From positions 3,361,934 to 3,425,933 of the forward strand of contig OY725494.1 in NCBI GenBank assembly GCA_963281255.1: a stretch of 64,000 bases of DNA, given 5' to 3'. Source of the stretch: Aphrocallistes beatrix (lineage: Eukaryota > Porifera > Hexactinellida > Sceptrulophora > Aphrocallistidae). A program made the position numbers and the translations under genes. The notes beneath the pieces were generated by a model. It was not told the DNA's origin, did no database searches, and saw nothing but the letters and a program-made list of their open reading frames with translations. Shown here in pieces: positions 5,490 to 55,200 of this stretch (positions within the stretch are counted from its first letter, which is position 1; each line of letters begins with the position of its first letter).

Positions 5490-6445
5490 TTACAAGCGCG
5501 CTTCGCTTGCTTGCGCTGCGCGACTTGCAGACACTTCGTGTCCGCAGATTTGTTTACCCTATGTACCTATTGAAAACAAAAGTAACCAAATAATTTATCA
5601 TATAGACCTGAAAATATGATATTCGAAATCTACATCCCTAAAAACCCCATGTCAACCGTTGGAAGCTAGTCTCTAGCATATTTTTGAGATTTGTTTACTT
5701 TATGTATCTAATATAAACAAAAGTAAACAAATAATTTATCATATAGACCTGAAAATATGATATTCGAAATCTACACCCCTAAAAACCCCATGAACCCGTT
5801 GGAAGCTAGTCTCTAGCATATTTTTCAAAATTCGTCAAATGGTGTGAAAATATGTATATAAAGGTGTGAAAATACGCACATAATCTTTTTTATTGCTATA
5901 CATTATGATACATTTAAGAGATCAAACATAATTCGCGTTTTAGTTTGCGACATGTCGCGTTTTGTTTTGAGACAGGTCGCGTTTTGTTTGCGACATGTCG
6001 CGTTTTATTTTGCGACATGTCGCGTTTTGATTTGCGACATGTCGCGTTTTAATTTGCGACATGTCGCGTTTTACAAATCTCAAAAATATGCCAGAAACTT
6101 GCTTTCAACGGTTGACATGGGGTTTTCAGGGGTGTAGATTTCGAATATCGTATTTTCGAGTAAATGTGATAAATTATTTGTTTACTTTTGTTTACATTAG
6201 ATACATAAAGTAAACAAATCTCAAAAATATGCTAGAAACTTGCTTCCAACGAGTAACATGGGGTTTTCAGGGGTGTAGATTTCGAATATCGTATTTTCGA
6301 GTAAATGTGATAAATTATTTGTTTACTTTTGTTTACATTAGATATATAAAGTAAACAAATTACAAAAATGGGCTAGAGACTAGTTTCCAACGGTTGAAAT
6401 GGGGTTTTTAGTGCTGTAGGTTTCAAATATTATATTTTCGGATCC
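5490..6445. repeat. Large inverted-repeat element, dispersed repeat family B
   Basis: Two arms face each other. The left (about 5490-5845) holds two direct copies of a roughly 165-bp unit containing GATATTCGAAATCTACA and GTTGGAAGCTAGTCTCTAGC. The right (about 6075-6445) holds copies of the same unit in reverse. Between them lies a short tandem array (5943-6072). The left end begins with a GC-rich GCGCGCTTCGCTTG block. Related copies occur at 21362-21605, 57830-58055 and, in part, at 32557-32620 and 55195-55265. No protein is encoded. It looks like a fold-back non-autonomous element, but its class is unknown. Confidence 0.65.
5943..6072. repeat. Tandem array with palindromic core GCGACATGTCGC
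   Basis: Six units of about 21 bp (TTGCGACATGTCGCGTTTT) lie in the centre of the inverted-repeat element. Five contain the perfect 12-bp palindrome GCGACATGTCGC. The second reads GAGACAGGTCGC. A lone copy of the palindrome appears at about 32610 beside another family B fragment, so the motif belongs to the repeat family. Confidence 0.8.
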
Positions 6446-6504
6446 ATATGAGAAATTATTCGTTGACCTTTGTTTACAATAAAGGAAAAAAATCCCAAAA
6501 TATG

Positions 6505-7032
6505 TTAGATTGAGTAACTCCTGTTACTCATCCGATCGTTTTGGGTATTTAGGGCTTGCTCAACTGTAAATAATTTCTCATCAGAAAAGATTATATGATC
6601 CAGTCCATGACTTGCGAACCGGTCACGTAGAATTTTACTTCTTGCTAACCTCTTCTGCTTGATCGCTGCCGAAATAAAGTGGACTTTCCTTCTTTTATAA
6701 GGAAATAGGCCTAGATCTCTTTTTACAATTGTACGGACAGATTCCCTAGAGATTTTAATTTCTGACGCTATTTTCCGCATCGAACGTCGCGGATTTCGCC
6801 AAATCCGACTCCGCACAACCTTTCTGTTCCGTATGTTGGTTGCAGAGACGGGACGTCCACTTCTTGGTCTGTCTGTGGTGTTGCCAATGTCCCTATACCT
6901 TTTGATAGTGCGGTATATGAATTTACGTCGCGTTTTGGGGAAATCCATAAATTTCAATATTTCGCTCGGACTTTTCCCTTGAAGGTAAAATTTAATAATA
7001 GCCGCCGTCTTCTTCCATGATTCAAAAAATTT
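6505..7032 (-). pseudogene. Tc1/mariner transposase fragment
   Basis: An open frame of about 175 codons matches the N-terminal half of a Tc1/mariner transposase. It has a helix-turn-helix region (FIYRTIKRYRDIGNTTDRP), the GRPVSA GRPR-like linker, a second HTH (SMRKIASEIKISRESVR) and the first catalytic Asp in HIIFSDEKLFTVE. The frame opens from a stop at 7033-7035 with no ATG before residue M of MKFMDF (6957), so the original start is lost. It ends shortly after the first Asp, so the second Asp and third acidic residue are missing. It cannot encode an active enzyme. Confidence 0.8.
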
Positions 7033-31265: not shown

Positions 31266-31633
31266 GAAATTAGTGATACAAAATAGTGGGGAATATATTG
31301 GTAAATAATTATAGACAGTACACACTGATTAAGTTATTGAAATATACCATAATACATAGCATTCTATATACTAAGGCAATGGCACTCACCAAAAAATTAG
31401 TACCATGGATTGGTTAAATACTTCAAAACCAATAATTTTGATATTGTAGATACGTATTTCAATTTTCCATCAATTTAGGCATTCACCACCCTGACAAACT
31501 AACTATTATATCAGAACAATTGAAATGAGATATATTATTTGGTTTTTAATGCACATAGTCGAATTATTTAATACTTAATACATACAAAATATCAAAAGAA
31601 TAGTTAATCACAATATTGAGACTTGAGGGACAG

Positions 31634-31790
31634 ACTTGACTTGACTTGACTTGACTTGACTTGACATGACATGACATGACATGACATGACATGACATGAC
31701 ATGACATGACATAACATGACATGACATGACATGACATGACATGACATGACATGACTTGACTTGACTTGACTTGACTTGACTTGACTTGAC
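31634..31790. repeat. TTGAC/ATGAC pentamer microsatellite
   Basis: About 31 tandem pentamers: TTGAC blocks at both ends enclose a longer ATGAC block with one ATAAC variant. Non-coding. Confidence 0.95.
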
Positions 31791-32334
31791 AAATAAACAA
31801 AGAATATATTAAATTAGTTCTTGAATTTAGCCAGTTTACTATTCTCTTGTTTCAATACTAGTGCATTATATATAGGTCTTAACTTTATTAGAAGTGTATA
31901 CAATGTTTTAGTTCCATAGTAGCACATGCCAAATGAATAATATTAGTACGGGAAGAGCCAGAATAAATGTTTTAAATTTCTGTTGAGGGTGCAGATACAT
32001 CGTCGTCATAGGTGTAACTCCAGGGGTGGCAGGGGTATCGTGCCACCACAGACCTAAATGTTATGTTGACTTGGGGTGACATGCCACATTAGTTTGATAT
32101 ATGTTTACAAATCTCGCCACCCCAGCTAACCATGAAAAAATCAAAATAGTTACGCTTATGATCGTCGTTAAACGACTATTCTTCCCTACCCAATTCACAT
32201 TGAACATTTCCTAAACATCATTAACGAATTTCAAGAACTCAACAGTTTAGTTCTGGTCTACACTGTTCTTATCCATCATATAAGCTAACAGTCCGGCTGA
32301 AGTTGACTAATAGGAAATCTTAAGGGCCAAAATT

Positions 32335-32393
32335 ACATTTCGCCTTTCCAACCTGACAACCAGCAGGCTTGTTAGGTTGGAAAGGCGAAATGT
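32335..32393. repeat. Short hairpin: 25-bp arms, 9-base loop
   Basis: The arm ACATTTCGCCTTTCCAACCT(GACAA) is mirrored at 32369-32393 with one mismatch, around the loop CCAGCAGGC. No tandem context or target duplication is evident. It could be a fold-back mobile fragment or, less likely, a small-RNA precursor. Confidence 0.75.
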
Positions 32394-32556
32394 CCCGATG
32401 TTAATTTGGAGCACGTACTAACACTATGACACACATCGGATTTGCATTTAAGTTGAGTGTTTATTAAAAGTTATTAAGTCTCTCTAGTATGGACACTAGT
32501 TCAGTATAGCTGGAGATTCTTGATTCTGATTTGAGAAACAGAAGTTATAATCAATA

Positions 32557-32770
32557 CAAGCGCGCTTCCCGCACTTGCATAACACAGCTAGCTAAATGTC
32601 ATCAACGCGACATGTCGCACTTAATTTAGAATTAAAAAGCGAACTTAATCGTAGACTCGTCCTTTGACACCTATATGCCAATTTTCCTATCTCGACGCCA
32701 ATTTTTCAATCAATTCGGACAAACAAACAAACAAAACAAAAATCCTAGCGTTTTAATATCTAAGATTATG
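32557..32770. repeat. Fragments of dispersed repeat families B and A
   Basis: CAAGCGCGCTTCCCGCACTT and the palindrome GCGACATGTCGC (near 32610) belong to family B. From about 32640, CTTAATCGTA ... CCAATTTTC ... (AAAC)n AAAATCCTAGCGTTTTAATA matches family A at 7391-7530. The rest of 30386-32859 shows no intact gene. Confidence 0.6.
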
Positions 32771-32859
32771 TTTTATATATTTATTTCTTAATCTATTTGA
32801 TTTTATGCTTTTTGTACCTTGAAGATAATTGCTTTACTTTTGGCGTTCATGAATCTCCA

Positions 32860-35800
32860 ATGAACTGCGGTGCAATGAAAAAAACGTGTCCATTTTGTTT
32901 TAAAGAATTATGTAAGCTACGCAGGCATTTGAAATTTGTGCACCCTGAAATTGACAAGGAAGAGCAGGAGCGCACCTTGACGAGAATGAAGAAGAACATT
33001 GTTGGAAAATCCGTGACTTTTCTCTACTGCAGAGTTAAATTGCGTGGTCGTGAATGCAATAGATATATTGCTGACAGTGGGTATGTTTCTTCTTATAATC
33101 AGACTCCTGAATTATTATGAGTGTGAAGTTGGCAGCGAAATAAATTAACAAAATCGAGCACACTTTAACACGCTATAATTGCAATTCCAGGACACGTAGA
33201 GGGGTGTCATTTGGAATATAACAATACTAGCCTAGGAGGTTTCTGTCATTTTAATTTCAATTCAATCTGACACCCCAGTGGCACATGATGAGATTGCAAA
33301 ATTATGGAAAATTTAAAAAAATATTCACTTTTCCTAAAATCGAGCACACTTTAACACGCTATAATTGCAATTCCAGGACACGTAGAGAGGTGTCATTTGG
33401 AATATAACAATACTAGCCTAGGAGGTTTCTGTCATTTTAATTTCATTTCAATCTGACACCCCAGTGGCACATGATGAGATTGCAAAATTATGGAAAATTT
33501 AAAAAAATATTCACTTTTCCTAAAATCGAGCACACTTTAACACGCTATAATTGCGATTCCAGGACACGTAGAGGGGTGTCATTTGGAATATAGCAATACT
33601 AGCCTAGGAGGTTTCTGTCATTTTAATTTCAATTCAATCTGACACCCCAGTGGCACATGATGAGATTGCAAAATTATGGAAAATTTAAAAAAATATTCAC
33701 TTTTCCTAAAATCGAGCACACTTTAACACGCTATAATTGCAATTCCAGGACACGTAGAGAGGTGTCATTTGGAATATAACAATACTAGCCTAGGAGGTTT
33801 CTGTCATTTTAATTTCATTTCAATCTGACACCCCAGTGGCACATGATGAGATTGCAAAATTATGGAAAATTTAAAAAAATATTCACTTTTCCTAAAATCG
33901 AGCACACTTTAACACGCTATAATTGCGATTCCAGGACACGTAGAGGGGTGTCATTTGGAATATAGCAATACTAGCCTAGGAGGTTTCTGTCATTTTAATT
34001 TCAATTCAATCTGACACCCCAGTGGCACATGATGAGATTGCAAAATTATGGAAAATTTAAAAAAATATTCACTTTTCCTAAATCGAGCACACTTTAACAC
34101 GCTATAATTGCAATTCCAGGACACGTAGAGGGGTGTCATTTGGAATATAGCAATACTAGCCTAGGAGGTTTCTGTCATTTTAATTTCAATTCAATCTGAC
34201 ACCCCAGTGGCACATGATGAGATTGCAAAATTATGGAAAATTTAAAAAAATATTCACTTTTCCTAAAATCGAGCACACTTTAACACGCTATAATTGCAAT
34301 TCCAGGACACGTAGAGAGGTGTCATTTGGAATATAACAATACTAGCCTAGGAGGTTTCTGTCATTTTAATTTCATTTCAATCTGACACCCCAGTGGCACA
34401 TGATGAGATTGCAAAATTATGGAAAATTTAAAAAAATATTCACTTTTCCTAAAATCGAGCACACTTTAACACGCTATAATTGCGATTCCAGGACACGTAG
34501 AGGGGTGTCATTTGGAATATAGCAATACTAGCCTAGGAGGTTTCTGTCATTTTAATTTCAATTCAATCTGACACCCCAGTGGCACATGATGAGATTGCAA
34601 AATTATGGAAAATTTAAAAAAATATTCACTTTTCCTAAAATCGAGCACACTTTAACACGCTATAATTGCAATTCCAGGACACGTAGAGAGGTGTCATTTG
34701 GAATATAACAATACTAGCCTAGGAGGTTTCTGTCATTTTAATTTCATTTCAATCTGACACCCCAGTGGCACATGATGAGATTGCAAAATTATGGAAAATT
34801 TAAAAAAATATTCACTTTTCCTAAAATCGAGCACACTTTAACACGCTATAATTGCGATTCCAGGACACGTAGAGGGGTGTCATTTGGAATATAGCAATAC
34901 TAGCCTAGGAGGTTTCTGTCATTTTAATTTCATTCCAATCTGACACCCCAGTGGCACATGATGAGATTGCAAAGTATGATTATACTTACATACTTTGTGT
35001 TAAGTATCCATTCTTAGTAATACCAAAGTGTGTTGATAGATATTGACTGCTTAAAGACTTCTCCTGCAAATAACGAATTGATCGGTTGGCCATTACTATT
35101 TGATGACTGAGTACGTTGAGAAAATTAATGTAAATTTGTCATGCTGAATGCATACATTGACTTCACAGTACGCCCAGGTGAGGTTACTAACGCTCAACAG
35201 ACCATCAGTAATCGGTCAAATTATAATAGATATCTTGAAAATCTGTTATCGTATGCTCTCGAATTACGTTTTGTAACCATTATATCCTGAAATCATAGAA
35301 GTCTGCCATTTCTTAATTATTATGTAATAATACGTCTATGACTCTATATTAATAAATCACTGCAACTAATCAAGTAACATATATCGAGCTTCTTCATAAT
35401 ATACGTAATCATATGCGTAATTATATAACTAGCCTCAGTATAAGTAATATTATTATCCATTTGAAATTATCTTATTTATAATTTTGTCCTTTCTCGAATC
35501 ATATACGTATTTATTTTCATCTTAAATTAATATTTTTTCCAACTACCACGCTATGAGTTCTTTGATACTCCGATGTGGTGATATTGAAACCAACCCTGGA
35601 TCCTTACAAGGTAAGTAATTTCTAAGTTAAATATTAACTATTTTCAACCTAATTGTTATTATCTACTGATTTTTAGTTGACGGAAATTCTCGAAAGGCTA
35701 TGCTATCTCTAATTGTGAATGCATTGTTTGCTTTGGAAATCAAATGGTCTGACGTCGAAAAATATCTAAAAGAGAACCAGAATTGGCGTTACCCATATTC

Positions 35801-38800
35801 ATTGTGGGGTAAGTTATCTAAACATATTTTTGGGAGAAATCGTGCTTGTCAACGTGCAAAAATAATGAACATATGGCGCAAAAACCAAACAAAAATTCAT
35901 CACAAATTTCTGGGTTTACTAATGTCTGATGAACTTGATAAACCTCTTCAGAGTTTACCAATTAGTATTAATTTTCAACAATTCCCAGCAAAATATTTTC
36001 TCACTCCAACTGGAAGATCTCTTCTTCCACAATCTCAAAGTATCACTCTAGAAAATTTAGAGAGTACTAGTACAAGTTCTACTGATTCAAATTTTACGTA
36101 TATTCATACTGAGGAGAGAAACCGTAACTCTATACCTATTTCGTCCCCAAACAATTATGGTGAATTTGAAAAGTTTTCACTTCTGGATAATTCGATATCA
36201 AGCAAAACTGCTGAAAGGAAAAACGAGAGCAAATTCGAATATCCAAAATATTTTGAATTCTCACTGAATAAAAGAGAATGGGATGATATTTCGCCACAAA
36301 TAAATGGAAAACAATTGAAAACCGAATGGACAAACATTTTCAGTCAAAATTTTTCAAAATTCTCCCCATTTTGCGTCATCAAATTTCACTACCATCGTAT
36401 CAACAAATCTACTATCCGAAACTGCTCGTATCTTGTTGGAGAAGCAATTTGTAAATTCAATAACTGTTTAAAATATGAATTTCAGATACAAAATATTCCT
36501 AATCCTGCGACAGAAAATGTTCTTGTTGAGGTACATGTTTCAGGATCTATTTCTTATCAGCACTTTGATAATATAACCACATTTTCGCGAAAATTATCCG
36601 GCCAAGAAAGGATTTTAGTTGCTGGACAATTGGCTCATAATTCTGCGAGTAATTTTCATTACAAACAATTTGAACAATCTAACAGTTTAGACGTTGCGAA
36701 ACATGGCAATCTGAACTTTCTGAAATCTCAAGAGGCCCTTCGAAAAGTTAAATCAGAACATGATTCAAAAAGCAGAATGAGTGATGATATGTGGCAAGAT
36801 ATCATAATCACTCAAAAAACCTATGATAGTAATATTAAAGGGACAATTCTTAATGGTTACATACAGACGGTATCTCGATATCCCATTGTCATCCATATGC
36901 ACACAGAGGAACAAATACGCATTATCAAAAAACTTCAACCTGGAAACTTGATATTGCATTTGGATGCAACTGGTTCCATTGTAAGAAAAATTGATAAATT
37001 CCACAAAAAAATCTTGTATTATGCTTTAACAGTGAGACATCCTGAAGCTAAAACTTCTCCCATTCCACTTGCGGAGATGATAAGCAGTGAGCATACTAAT
37101 GTTGAAATTAGTCATTTCTTAAACAAATGGTTCTATAACGTAAAAAAGGTATTAACTAAAGAAATTATTCCTACACATGTTGAAGTAGATTTTAGCTGGG
37201 CTATGTTACATAGTGTTTGTAACTGCTTTAATTCTCAAACTCTAGACATATACTTGGATGCTTGCTGGCAAAAAGTTAACCAAAAGGAAATTGGTAGCAA
37301 CAGGATAAAAACTATGATTCATATATGCTCCGCACATATAATGAACCGTTTCAGCTACAAGATTGAACATAAATTAAGGCCCACGAAAGAAACTAAACGA
37401 GTGATGATGTTTATAATGGCACGGATTACAAGTTGTACAACTCTAGAAGAAGTGGACCAATTATTTACGTCCTTGTGCATATCATGTTTATCTCGAATGA
37501 GATACCCTGAAGTAGAGCAGTACATAAAAAAGCTTGAGAATGCAATATTTCACTGTAATGAAAATCATGAGCTCGGAATGGATTATTTGTCAGAAATTGA
37601 TGAGGAATTATCTAATGAACTAGGAGATTGTATGACATATAGAAATAAGTCTCCTTTTGGAAAACATTTTGATTCCATTCTACAGAAGAGTAAATCTTTC
37701 GTACAAGATTTACAAACTCGACCCCAAACTATATCTCTAGAAGTGAACCACAGATATTATTTACCTGATTTGCCTGGGTTTTTGGTAACACATTATATGC
37801 CAATATGTCCTTTATGGACCGGGGTGATTATTGGTCCGACTTTGTTCCCTGGAAAGTTAGACGTCACTTTTACAAACTCGATTGTGGAAAATTGGATTAA
37901 AATTGTTAAGCATACTATTTTGAAAGACGAAATAAAACTGAGACCGGGTGATTTTATTAGACGAATTTATGAAGGGCTTTGTGGTAGAATTAAAGCATTT
38001 GATTTTGGTTTTCTTCAAATTAGCAGCAAATTGTTGAAAAGAACCAAGATAAATAGGGAAAAAGACAACACACAATTCGAAGAAATTTGGGAACGACGAA
38101 AAAGAAAGCGAAGTTATTTCAAACAATGTCAATTGTCCAAAACAAAATTTAATGAAATAAGTACGAAACAAAAAAACCTTACATTTAAACCTAAGCGAAA
38201 AAAGAAAATAAGAAGAGGGAAACCGATTAAGAAAGTACAAATATCTGAAATAAATTCCAACGATGTGCAAAGTGATGACAGTATCTTCGATCTAGTAAAA
38301 AATTCAAGTGATGTTATTTTTCATGATCAAGGACAATTTTCTCCTGTTACTTCTGATTGGCAACGCCAGAAATGTAAAGAATTCATGTTTACATATGTAA
38401 GCGGTGTAATTTATGAAAATGAGGCTTTTGATAAAAGTTTAGAAATTAGAAAGTTAGCCCCTTCAAAGGAAAAGCGAGTATCTCCAGATGGGAATTGTCT
38501 TTTTAGTTCGTTATCTTATGTTGTAACTGGTTCAGATCATTATCATAGAGAATTTAGGGAGTTATTAATTAAGAATATGAAAAATAAATATCGAACCGAA
38601 TGTACAAACTATTGCACATCGCATTGCGATTTACTTCCTGAGCAACAATGTAATACCATAGAGGAATATATTTCTGTAAGTATGATGGATAGAGTAGGGT
38701 CGTGGGGGACCGACTTAGAATTGTTTTTAGCAGCTCAACTCCTTCAAACGGATATTTTCGTATTTAAAGATGTACTTCGTTGTTGGAACAAATTTTCAGG

Positions 38801-40146
38801 ATATGGATTCAATGGCAAGCAAAATGTACATGATTTAACTGAGAAGAGGTTGTATTTACGTTTATACTTCAGTCATTTTCAACCAGTGACAAAAGTCAAT
38901 ACAGTGAAGAATGTAATGACTGAAAGTTACGTAGAAGAATTTGATCCAATTCAATGAGATATTTCCTAGCTCTACATAGATAAAAGTTTAGAAATCAGTT
39001 TGAAATAGAAGCTGTACAGGCTAATATCTAGTTAGTAATCTTTCATATTAGTAGACTTTAACATATTGTAATGAAAGTATTGTTGTGCAATAATTTAGGT
39101 GTGGAGATAGGAAATACATACTATACTGGGATGCCGCTGAAATGATAGAAACCTCCTAGGCTAGTATTGCTATTTTCCAAATGACACCCCTCTACGTATC
39201 CTGGAATCGCAATTATAGCGTGTTAAAGTGTGCTCGATTTTAGGAAAAGTGAATATTTTTTCAAATTTTCCATAATTTTGCAATCTCATCATGTGCCACT
39301 GGGGTGTCAGATTGGAATGAAATTAAAATGACTGAAACCTCCTAGGCTAGTATTGTTATATTCCAAATGACACCTCTCTACATGTCCTGGAATCGAAATT
39401 ATAGCGTGTTAAAGTGTGCTCGATTTTAGAAAAAGTGAATATTTTATCAAATTTTCCATAATTTTGCAATCTCATCATGTGCCACTGGGGTGTCAGATTG
39501 GAATGAAATTAAAATGACAGAAACCTCCTAGGCTAGTATTGCTATTTTCCAAATGACACCCCTCTACGTATCCTGGAATTGCAATTATTGCGTGTTAAAG
39601 TGTGCTCGATTTTAAGAAAAGTGAATATTTTATCAAATTTTCCATAATTTTGCAATCTCATCATGTGCCACTGGGGTGTCAGTTTGAAATGAAATTAAAA
39701 TGACAGAAACCTCCTAGGCTAGTATTGTTAAATTCCAAATGACACCTCTCTACGTTTCCTGGAATTGCAATTATAGCGTGTTAAAGTGTGCTCGATTTTG
39801 TTAATTTATTTCGCTGCCAACTTCACACTCATGAATTATTATATTCTAAGAGTCATTATTTTTAAATTTATTTAATAGTTTTTATAATCATTTAAGACGT
39901 TCTCATGGTGTATATGGACTTTTTGAAAGGAGAAAAATCAAGAATTCTGCAAAGAAATTCCTCAAATTATCAAGTGAAACCTCAAATGTAGATCATGAGT
40001 TAGTTGAAGAAAATCCAATAGTAGTGAATGATACGATCCAGCTAGAGCAAACAAACCTTTATCTGGAGGAATTAGTTATCCTTGAGATACACGGTGGAAA
40101 TGGAGAGTATTGGAAGAATGATTCTGTTGTCCGATATGAGCACTGA
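32860..40146 (+). CDS. Zinc-finger protein gene split by a transposon in its intron
   Basis: Exon 1 (32860-33080) and exon 2 (39879-40146) join in phase to give 162 residues. The donor is GTGG|GTATGT and the acceptor TTTAATAG. The first ATG (32860) gives MNCGAMKKTCPFCFKELC with CPFC-x12-H-x4-H (HLKFVHPE). The second finger is created only by splicing: C-x6-GREC in exon 1 and FYNHLRRSH in exon 2 give a Cys...H-x4-H pair. That the finger reconstitutes exactly across the junction supports the join. The C-terminal half is acidic with no known domain. A further upstream exon is possible. The intron is about 6.8 kb, almost all of it the inserted element 33118-39831. I do not recognise the family. 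Confidence 0.6.
33151..34972. repeat. Left terminal array: ten copies of a 186-bp unit
   Basis: Unit starts (at CACTTTAACA) lie at 33161, 33347, 33533, 33719, 33905, 34090, 34276, 34462, 34648 and 34834, so spacing is 186 except once 185. The tenth copy is cut short. Two subtypes largely alternate: one has AGAGAGGTGTC, ATAACAATAC and TTTCATTTCAA, the other AGAGGGGTGTC, ATAGCAATAC and TTTCAATTCAA. Units are otherwise near identical. Confidence 0.95.
35553..38957 (+). CDS. Transposase with 2A-like N-terminus and OTU protease domain
   Basis: Exon 1 (35553-35610) and exon 2 (35677-38957) join in phase to 1112 residues. The first 18 residues, MSSLILRCGDIETNPGSL, match the 2A-like consensus DxExNPG but have Ser where Pro is required for skipping. 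The core fits a DDE nuclease of MULE type: Asp449 (LILHLDATGS), Asp524 (THVEVDFSWAML), a C-x2-H (ICSAHIMNRF) and Glu757 (TNSIVENWIKIVK). A strongly basic stretch (KPKRKKKIRRGKPIKK) is a likely nuclear signal. The C-terminal 180 residues are an OTU cysteine protease: SPDGNCLFSSLSYV with Asp957 and Cys960, WGTDLELFLAAQLL, and a final His in FSHFQPV. OTU domains cleave ubiquitin chains. The DDE assignment is by motif only and the Asp-Glu spacing is long. Confidence 0.82.
39141..39800. repeat. Right terminal array: four inverted copies of the 186-bp unit
   Basis: TGTTAAAGTGTGCTCGAT recurs at about 39220, 39406, 39592 and 39778, 186 bp apart, in reverse orientation to the left array. CACCCCTC and CACCTCTC subtypes alternate strictly. 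These copies differ from the left-array units more than those do from each other (for example TTTTATCAAATTTTCC), except the outermost, which matches the left end. Confidence 0.95.
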
Positions 40147-52267: not shown

Positions 52268-55200
52268 ATGGACGGATATGAAGAAGAGTTAAAATTATTA
52301 AAAATTCCAAGCAGCCAAGAACATGGAAAGAGCGTAGAACCCATTCAAATTCCAGACTCGTACAAAACGAATACTGAAGCTGAGGAAAAGGCGATAAATT
52401 TCGCCAAAAACTTCCGCCGGCAATACATGCACCTGTACCAAGACAGGAAGCCCTTGATGCTGTACCCTCCGAATGAGTTCGAAGTCCCCAAACTAATCTG
52501 CACCAGCCTTCGTCCCACTCAGCTCAAGTTCAAGCAGCTCTATGATTTTGATCTCTGCGCTGAGTTCGTAGCAGACTACCTCACCTATCAGGTAATTACT
52601 TCTTTGACACTCGAATGCTACCCACACTAGCGCACTATCCCACGAACCGTCTGGTACTTCATTTATAAAAATAGAATTGATTATAATGGGAAATTCTGAG
52701 CCTAGGCCAGCCATTTAGGATATTTTACAAGTAGTTTGTTTTAGCAGCTTAAGAGTTTAGAATCGTGAAGACTACACACGTACTAATTATTTCCAAGGTT
52801 TAATTACCAAAAAGTCGTGATATCGCGGATGTCTCCAGCCATTTTCAATGGGAAAGAAGTCAAGTTGTAACACTGTGCATAGGCGTAGGAGTAGGTGCGG
52901 CAGGTCCGGCTTTGGCCGGACCACTTTTTTGGGCAAGGATCAGATGGTCCGGCTTTTGGCCGGACTTCTTTTTTAGCCGGTCCGGCGGGTCCGGTTTTTG
53001 GCCGGACCATGAATTTTCCTATTTGCTGACTTATAAGTTTGTGCTATTGCATTCCAATGTATGTATATCTTTTGTCTGACCTTATTTATCAAGTTTGCTA
53101 GCTGAATTATATAATTGGAGTTATAACTGGAGTTATAACTGGAGTTATAACTGGAGTTATAACTGGAGTTATAACTGAAGTTATAACTGAAGTTATAACT
53201 GGAGTTATAACTGAAGTTATAACTGGAGTTATAACTGGAGTTATAACTGAAGTTATAACTGGAGTTATAACTGGAGTTATAACTGAAGTTATAACTGGAG
53301 TTATAACAGGAGTTATAACTGAAGTTATAACTGGAGTTATAACTGAAGTTATAACTGGTGTTATAACTGGAGTTATAACTGAAGTTATAACTGAAGTTAT
53401 AACTGAAGTTATAACTGAAGTTATAACTGAAGTTATAACTGGAGTTATAACTGGAGTTATAACTGGTGTTATAACTGGAGTTATAACTGGCGTCAGAGGC
53501 GGCGCCAGGACGCCGCCACTGGGGGGGCACCTTGGGGGCACAAATCATTTCCAGTAGGGCACCAACATTTTTTGGGTACAGATTACCCGCCAATGAGAAC
53601 TAATAGGTATATAGTACTGTTGCATGAAAAAATGCCCCCACTATGGATATTCATGTAAATATGGGGGGGGGCAAAATTTCATGGAGTTAGCGTGAAAAAT
53701 GTTATAACTGAAGTTATAACTGGAGTTATTTTAACTGGAGTTATAACTGGAGTTATAACTGAAGTTATAACTGAAGTTATAACTGGAGTTATAACTGGAG
53801 TTATAACTGGAGTTATAACTGGAGTTATAACTGGAGTCAGAGGCGGCGACGGGACGCCGCCACTGGGGGGGCACAAATCATTTCCAGTGGGGCACCAACA
53901 TTTTTTGGGTACAGATTACCCGCCAATGACAAACAATAGGTATATAGTACTGTTGCATGAAAAAATGCCCCCACCATGGATATTCTTGAGTTTAACACTA
54001 AATATTGCTGATACTATTTATATACGATACATTTATGAAAGTCATTGTTATTACTTCACACGACTAGTTTGTTGATTTGCAATGCTTTAGTAAACGAATA
54101 GAAGCCAAATAGCATTCAAAATGTTTTGTATAAGCATTGGCATACTTTAGAATATCCATGGTGGGGGGCATTTTTTCATGCAACAGTACATATATATACA
54201 CTGCCCTGCCAAAAGTATTCGTACACCTCAACATTTTCCATACTAATAGTTATGAAATGTGTCTATTTAAGAAGTCAATATTATTAATTGGTATCAAATA
54301 TCCTTCTGTTCCCTTCAAATCCGTTATCTGCATATGTTATTTACCGACTTTGGAAGTTTTTAACTCTCAAAATTAACACTAGATCTTAAAAATTTCATCT
54401 TGTGTTATCATGTGCCATTAGTGCCATCATATATAGTGGTAAAAACATGTGAAATCTGGCACAAGGTGGCACTGTTAACATTTTTTTAACTTTGGTAATC
54501 AGTAATCAAATGGAAACTTTCTAAAGTGAGTAATTAACTTATATAGAAAACGAATTTGAAGCAAAAAGAAGGGTATCTGATGCCAATTGATAATATTGAC
54601 TTCTTAAATAGAGACATTTCATTACTATTAGCATGGAAAGTATTGAGGCGTACGAACACTTTTGGTAGGGGAGTGTATATACACATATTATGTTATTTTC
54701 TTACACTTAAATATTGGTGTACACTATTGAATTAGAGAAACCTGTTTATCGATATAATAGAAGCCTAGTAAAATAGTGCGAAGGCATGGACAAATGAATG
54801 ACGCATGTATTCCTGTCGGAAATTGGTGCCCCCCTCTACAGGAGGGGACACCACTAATTATAGGGGGGGCACGTGCTCCCCCTGGTCCCCCCCCTGGCGC
54901 CGCCACTGACTGGAGTTATAACTGGAGTTATAACTGGAGACTGGAGTTATAACTGAAGTTATAACTAGAGTTCTTGGCTTATATATTATAATTGCAGCTA
55001 TAGCTGGAGTCCATGGCTTACCAACATTTTGGCGCAAAATATTTTGAGCACTACACCACTGGGTGTAGATTCCCAATTGCAAATTACCAAAACTATGTGG
55101 CCACTCTTTGTTTTTATTACAATAGATGCATATATTAAACAAAATTTCGAATTGGATTGGTGAAAGTAGTCGATATTAAGTTTTTTTAATACTTCCAGGC

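Follow-up and report, generated by a model that had tools for sequence, protein, structure and literature searches.

This study concerned a mobile element in the genome of the hexactinellid sponge Aphrocallistes beatrix, located in a window of 64,000 nucleotides (assembly GCA_963281255.1, contig OY725494.1, positions 3,361,934 to 3,425,933; coordinates given without a contig are those of the window). The element is best explained as a DNA transposon of FoldBack architecture that is autonomous, moves by cut and paste and has been mobile recently, a reading to which we give a probability of about 0.85. It has inverted ends that carry tandem arrays, is flanked by a target-site duplication, has near-identical copies dispersed in the genome, and bears an open gene for a protein with a conserved acidic triad, a CxxH motif and an OTU domain (Table 1). 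Near-identical full-length copies with open genes and diverged sister families of the element coexist in one genome.

The first-pass annotation had placed a complete FoldBack-like element at 33118..39831. Completeness was borne out, but the true ends lie one base further out on each side (33117-39832), because the other ends of the same family (family A) with a recognisable terminus begin at the same base as the window terminus, ATGAGTGTGAAGTTGGCAGC at 33117. The left arm (33117-33809) and the right arm (39140-39832) match as inverted repeats over 693 nt with 96% complementarity, and tandem arrays were found on both sides within these long terminal inverted repeats (TIRs), as expected of the FoldBack-like architecture proposed earlier. 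Compared over the first 150 bases of each unit, the left array has the order a-b-c-b-c-f-b-c-b-j, with a mean identity between units of 98.9% at a lag of two, 99.5% at a lag of five and 97.7% at a lag of one, which points to recent duplications of two and of five units.

Table 1. Features of the element, in window coordinates.
Feature	Position	Strand	Details and basis
Left target-site duplication	33109..33116	.	GAATTATT; comparison of flanks
Whole transposon	33117..39832	+	6,716 bp; inverted-arm comparison, ends of other copies, target duplication
Left inverted repeat, outer terminal segment	33117..33149	+	33 bp; begins ATGAGTGTGAAGTTGGCAGC
Left tandem array	33150..34973	+	9.8 units x 186 bp, 98% matches; one unit of 185
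Exon 1	35553..35610	+	MSSLILRCGDIETNPGSLQ; predicted gene model
2A-like motif	35577..35603	+	GDIETNPGS, last Pro replaced by Ser; motif reading
Intron (predicted)	35611..35676	+	66 bp, GT...AG; predicted gene model
Exon 2, transposase and OTU	35677..38957	+	Stop 38955-38957; open reading frame and gene model
Catalytic core	36963..37889	+	D 36963, D 37188, CxxH 37326-37337, E 37887; family alignment
OTU domain	38484..38768	+	Pfam match; candidate catalytic Cys at codon 38496 and, past the end of the match, candidate His at codon 38874
Right tandem array, inverted	39140..39799	-	3.5 units x 186 bp, 93% matches
Right inverted repeat, outer terminal segment	39800..39832	-	33 bp; arm comparison
Right target-site duplication	39833..39840	.	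GAATTATT; comparison of flanks

The genome searched was an assembly of 28 contigs and 100.5 Mb, judged from the genes neighbouring the element to be that of an animal. When the left end was searched against it as DNA, at least 47 places matched, and the terminal pattern TGDGTRTGAAGTTRGCAGC had 47 exact matches, against none for a reversed control; from the match list, 28 of the 47 pair up as 14 inverted pairs. A target duplication was present at 14 of 16 end pairs, being 9 bp long in 13 of them and exactly 8 bp at the window, in keeping with the 8-10 bp claimed previously. A 9-bp original repeat, GAATTATTA, from which one A has since been lost at the left junction, would fit the window site too. 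The other A end pairs (7 of 7) have perfect 9-bp direct repeats, all seven different, while a 9-bp duplication flanks six of the seven pairs with ends of sister family B, those on contigs C7 and C4 included. The end sequence of that family is ATGGGTGTGAAGTTAGCAGC, and its terminus has 18 of the first 20 bases in common with that of family A. Copies with different flanks but the same terminal base were thus seen by both DNA search and end comparison, and the finding of copies that end elsewhere, which was to count against the element, was not made.

In the single-copy interior, the window element is 99.7% identical to a copy on C16 over 4,151 nt. For a copy on C13 the identity is 99.8% over 3,848 nt, while two overlapping pieces of a copy on C4 are 99.5 and 99.6% identical to the window interior. 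Older A copies are about 94-97% identical to the window interior, with one short piece at 92%. The copy on C16 is the second in family A whose frame is open throughout; all other A copies listed carry stops. The near-identical copies found elsewhere in the genome indicate that the element family has moved recently. An old copy at C2:402-406 kb had no recognisable ends in the stretches examined, and C10:1160287 is listed with a single end only. At C13:940109-949974 (L043, L044, L045), one A copy has its right end, together with the flank, in two places 3.7 kb apart, which is a segmental duplication of the element's end.

The gene was described as intact, and this holds: the main open reading frame (ORF), 35700-38957, is open over 1,085 amino acids, and the predicted spliced product, 1,112 amino acids from MSSLILRCGDIETNPGSLQ, has its single stop at the end. 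The predicted splice from leader exon to gene was traced in frame in family A only. The protein has a D-D-E triad with CxxH between the second D and the E, the motif typical of Mutator-type transposases, formed by D432, D507, C553-x-x-H556 and E740 (numbered from 35670). In an alignment of 13 sequences from seven families, several of them from one family, the D, D, C and H residues are conserved in 13 of 13 and the E in all 12 that reach it, and CxxH takes the form CSAH throughout (13/13). As first suggested, the C-terminus carries an OTU protease domain, matched by Pfam at an E value of 1e-9, with nothing else credible on the protein. The match recurs in six of the seven aligned members, with DGNC and a later His conserved in all six; the seventh, L027, is broken before the domain and has an OTU match just downstream. 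By sequence, the best match in PDB was likewise an OTU protein (E 0.015 alone, 0.00057 with the alignment), with nothing on the core, while NCBIfam gave one weak match in one member (E 0.095). Searches for relatives in IMG/VR and in a prokaryote genome set returned 14 and 54 pattern matches, none of which was confirmed. Across the whole sponge genome, at least 149 OTU matches were found (150 of 263 candidates scored), many of them in separate ORFs of 200-245 amino acids outside the families described below; these probably represent another mobile or expanded gene group.

A protein search of the same genome matched at least 62 stretches (best 42 of 739 candidates scored), and the relatives were sorted into families A (the window family), B (52%), C, D, E, F and G, with a common plan of a D...D...CxxH...E core followed by a C-terminal OTU domain. 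Family B includes five copies with the same score and the same 1,041-amino acid open frame. All five have the same 2,691-bp core sequence. In a comparison with the first copy over 5,691 bp, three others show 0, 1 and 3 differences and the fourth an array shift; four of the five have private 9-bp duplications. In this family, too, tandem arrays are present in the TIRs at both ends.

Membership of the Mutator-like elements (MULEs) appears likely, being favoured by duplication length and motifs; this part of the earlier assignment stands on the 9-bp duplications and the D-D-CxxH-E motifs, but no profile test confirmed it. The element would then be a plain member of the Mutator superfamily, of the Phantom, FoldBack or Rehavkus branch, and new only as a family, which is the placement that we consider the better founded. 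Its long TIRs agree with this, and the motif around its third acidic residue, TN(S/A)IVENW (TNSIVENW in the window), resembles TNNAVEGWH of a MULE from the same genome. The same-genome MULEs compared, presumably Phantom-type, have the same order of D, D, CxxH and E and the same third-acid motif, TNxxVExW. Target duplications are 8-10 bp, mostly 9 bp, in the FoldBack element Tm1 of a nematode and 8-10 bp in Tetris of Drosophila virilis, according to the accessible portions of PMC3169594 and PMC4079207 (all papers cited here by PMC number were accessible in part), comparable to the thirteen of 9 bp and one of 8 bp found here. Against the placement stand the spacings, 46 residues from the second D to the C and 187 from the C to the E, compared with 20-21 and about 110 in the same-genome MULEs, to which there was no significant sequence or profile match. 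The Pfam MULE model matched neither the window protein nor the seven members scanned, and hhalign gave a Prob of 0.1 against MULEs, not above the 0.2-0.3 against P elements, none of it significant with the thin profiles available (8 MULE and 6 P-type sequences from the same genome). The MULE and P-type profiles of this genome likewise failed to match each other significantly, so the comparison lacked power. The likeness to FoldBack noted at the outset holds for the long TIRs with tandem repeats and the 9-bp duplications; that to Rehavkus does not extend to the PHD finger, which is present in the transposase of Rehavkus, a sister of Mutator (PMC6446971), and which Pfam did not find in the seven members scanned, two of them partial. 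Rehavkus does resemble the element in having a minisatellite next to its TIR (PMC6446971), but here the arrays lie inside both TIRs.

A separate DDE superfamily, with FoldBack anatomy acquired by convergence as in Galileo from the P elements, is a distinctly less probable placement. It would account for a core that is recognised by no transposase profile, and for the absence of every family member, as read from the lists, from the MULE matches (121 listed after scoring of 150 of 168 candidates), where the window locus too is missing, and from the P-type matches (131 listed after scoring of 150 of 177). The genome also has at least 150 hAT matches. Galileo, a P-superfamily element with foldback-like ends (PMC3573991), provides a precedent, and independent origins are mentioned in the accessible part of PMC4079207. 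However, the 9-bp duplication, the motif-level likeness to MULEs and the CxxH of the window families, compared with DxxH in all six P-type proteins read from this genome, argue for Mutator.

Several results weigh against the reading as an autonomous, mobile FoldBack transposon. No Pfam or NCBIfam transposase model matches the transposase; single-sequence structure models of the OTU part and the core had predicted local distance difference test (pLDDT) scores of 34.7 and 34.5, too low to be of use; and the examined stretches of families B and F have no 2A-like motif. A duplication is missing at two of the 16 end pairs: one, of B type, lies on C6, and the other, decayed and A-like, on C7; the former (C6:4038109-4046118, L110/L111) possibly derives from two recombined elements. 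A search of the assembly with the right flank returned the window locus alone, with no empty site, and none was seen for the left flank among the best 40 of 1,962 and the best 40 of 1,820 candidates, lists so swamped by two short repeats that they do not settle that side. The suggestion that the element is possibly still mobile was upheld as far as recent movement goes, by near-identical dispersed copies and private duplications, but gained nothing from empty sites in the assembly. An inactive relic, its open frame and twin copies owed to recent segmental duplication, is very improbable, for although the doubled end on C13 shows that such duplication does happen and two end pairs have no target duplication, the flanks differ, which largely contradicts segmental duplication in place of transposition, and 14 of 16 pairs have a private duplication.

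The arrays of the sister families have periods of 186 (A), 185 (B), 187 (C), 185 (D) and 186 bp (E, seen at one side of one copy only), and no array was present in the examined stretches of family F. Units from different families (A-E) are 38-62% identical in pairwise comparison, with 0-3 gap events, a count lowered by the gap penalty of the aligner, so that the unit lengths themselves (185, 185, 186, 186 and 187) are the main support for a conserved period. Thirty-three columns are identical in all five units, whereas 2,000 shuffles of the aligned rows gave no more than 7. When each pair was compared with 100 rotation-aware shuffles, A-B, A-D, A-E, B-C and D-E lay clearly above all of them and A-C only narrowly so, while the values for B-D, B-E, C-D and C-E lay within the spread of the shuffles or at its margin. 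The units thus appear to be homologous across families, by way of the chain A-B, A-D, A-E, B-C and D-E. Their best conserved block, TGAnnnTGCAAA, is a putative protein-binding site. Because the period has been kept while the unit sequence has not, selection on the spacing of the arrays is suggested, and the period of about 186 bp may have a nucleosomal explanation.

A 2A-like leader upstream of the gene had been noted and is real, being common to families A, C, D and E, but in the window family it ends in NPGS, whereas families C, D and E have NPGP. The octapeptide D(V/I)ExNPGP is accordingly absent from family A, with Ser for the last Pro, which makes 2A activity there doubtful, and the leader in this family is probably weakened. 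In one tested context, Pro was the best residue, yet more than half of the substitutions kept more than 40% activity (PMC12846837). The leader is thus a trait of the lineage, with loss in some families. In the genome there are 30 instances of the exact core GD(V/I)ExNPGP, against none for a reversed control, and 25 of these motifs are leaders of family C (9), D (6) or E (10); two others have a common leader, the decayed A-like element of C7 holding one of this pair, and three were assigned to no family. Assignment was made by leader or motif sequence (20 motifs were cut out and 9 read in loci, with C20:2422155 placed by its motif letters alone). Among the 20 cut-out motifs, 15 are C, D or E leaders, and tblastn found transposase similarity downstream of 10 of the 15 but of none of the other five. 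NPGP leaders at L082, L086 and L091 lie outside the assigned transposon families, two of them having CGDIEANPGPQLSGK in common. StopGo sequences are described as frequent among RNA viruses, with few cases in cellular genes (PMC12846837), and a transposon lineage with 25 of the 30 exact 2A core motifs of its genome is an unusual carrier. The nearest likeness is the 2A-like signal of sea-urchin NOD-like receptors, in which an N-terminal hydrophobic stretch runs straight into GD(V/I)ExNPGP (PMC4981915), as in the leaders here; there it is found on immune receptors, whereas here it lies upstream of a DNA transposon gene, in family A on its own first exon.

A mechanism can be proposed in which the transposase would recognise the conserved 20-bp terminus for cleavage and would also bind the core TGAnnnTGCAAA and a GAGCAC box in each unit of about 186 bp, the terminal arrays serving as multi-site docking arms. 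This idea has a precedent, because the tandem repeats in Galileo ends hold extra transposase sites (cited in PMC4079207). Movement would be by cut and paste, insertion staggering the target by 9 bp, and the arrays may gain and lose whole units by unequal exchange or gene conversion. The substrates of the OTU domain might be the transposase itself or, at the insertion, chromatin or repair proteins, which it would relieve of ubiquitin or a ubiquitin-like tag; such domains have been proposed to act on repair factors in Ginger1 transposition (PMC2836005). In the NPGP families, the leader could yield two protein forms, while in family A it would be weakened or inactive. A broader joint reading, in which this is an undescribed animal lineage that combines phased, nucleosome-length arrays with a transposase-OTU protein made in two forms through a 2A signal leader, is speculative and in our view rather unlikely. 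It would have the period of about 186 bp selected while unit sequence drifts, each transposase site being fixed relative to nucleosomes, and one protein form free and nuclear while the other is diverted to the secretory path, giving a built-in dose control. Should the two-form StopGo reading hold, this would be the first known case of a DNA transposon with such a leader.

FB-NOF is a FoldBack element with long inverted ends of tandem repeats, and FoldBack elements have been linked to genome rearrangement. Long inverted ends of tandem repeats are also found in Tm1 and Tetris (PMC3169594, PMC4079207), as in the sponge element. Tm1 repeats are about 14 bp long (PMC3169594), compared with units of 185-187 bp in five families here, while those of Tetris are about 220 bp, in copies without conserved ORFs as far as the accessible text of PMC4079207 goes, compared with an intact transposase-OTU gene here. 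FoldBack transposases are hard to study because some elements are known only as such copies (Tetris, PMC4079207). With the sponge system one can study the function of the arrays, the reason for their constant period and the benefit that a transposase draws from a deubiquitinase-like domain.

FoldBack arrays and OTU-DDE fusions are already known separately. Ginger1 elements produce a short target duplication. As in the sponge element, an OTU protease lies C-terminal on the DDE transposase of Ginger1, but that transposase is Gypsy-integrase-like, whereas no integrase profile is among the Pfam matches here, and Ginger1 TIRs are 44-270 bp compared with the long, array-bearing TIRs described above (PMC2836005). 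The same paper records OTU proteins in Helitrons and Ulp1 in Mutator. In the open-licence literature searched, with Repbase and most subscription papers outside the search, no OTU-bearing FoldBack element and no 2A-like leader on a DNA transposon were found described, in agreement with the initial remark that the combination was unfamiliar; the term "OTU" has no occurrences in the accessible text of PMC6446971, PMC3169594 and PMC13359780.

Other repeats were noted around the element. The first of the two left-flank repeats (32300-32416) is 117 bp long, partly self-complementary and similar to miniature inverted-repeat transposable elements, and is 97-100% identical at no fewer than 39 other places in the genome (best 40 of 1,962 candidates scored); the second, at about 32640-32790, is about 82-89% identical at no fewer than 39 other places (best 40 of 1,820 candidates scored). 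An array of 32.8 copies of the pentanucleotide GACAT lies at 31629-31791, 1.3 kb left of the element. At 5574-7032, 141-bp repeats adjoin a helix-turn-helix transposase-like fragment (6508-7032, minus strand), and at 53110-53837 a 12-bp unit, TATAACTGGAGT, forms arrays of about 32 and about 11 copies.

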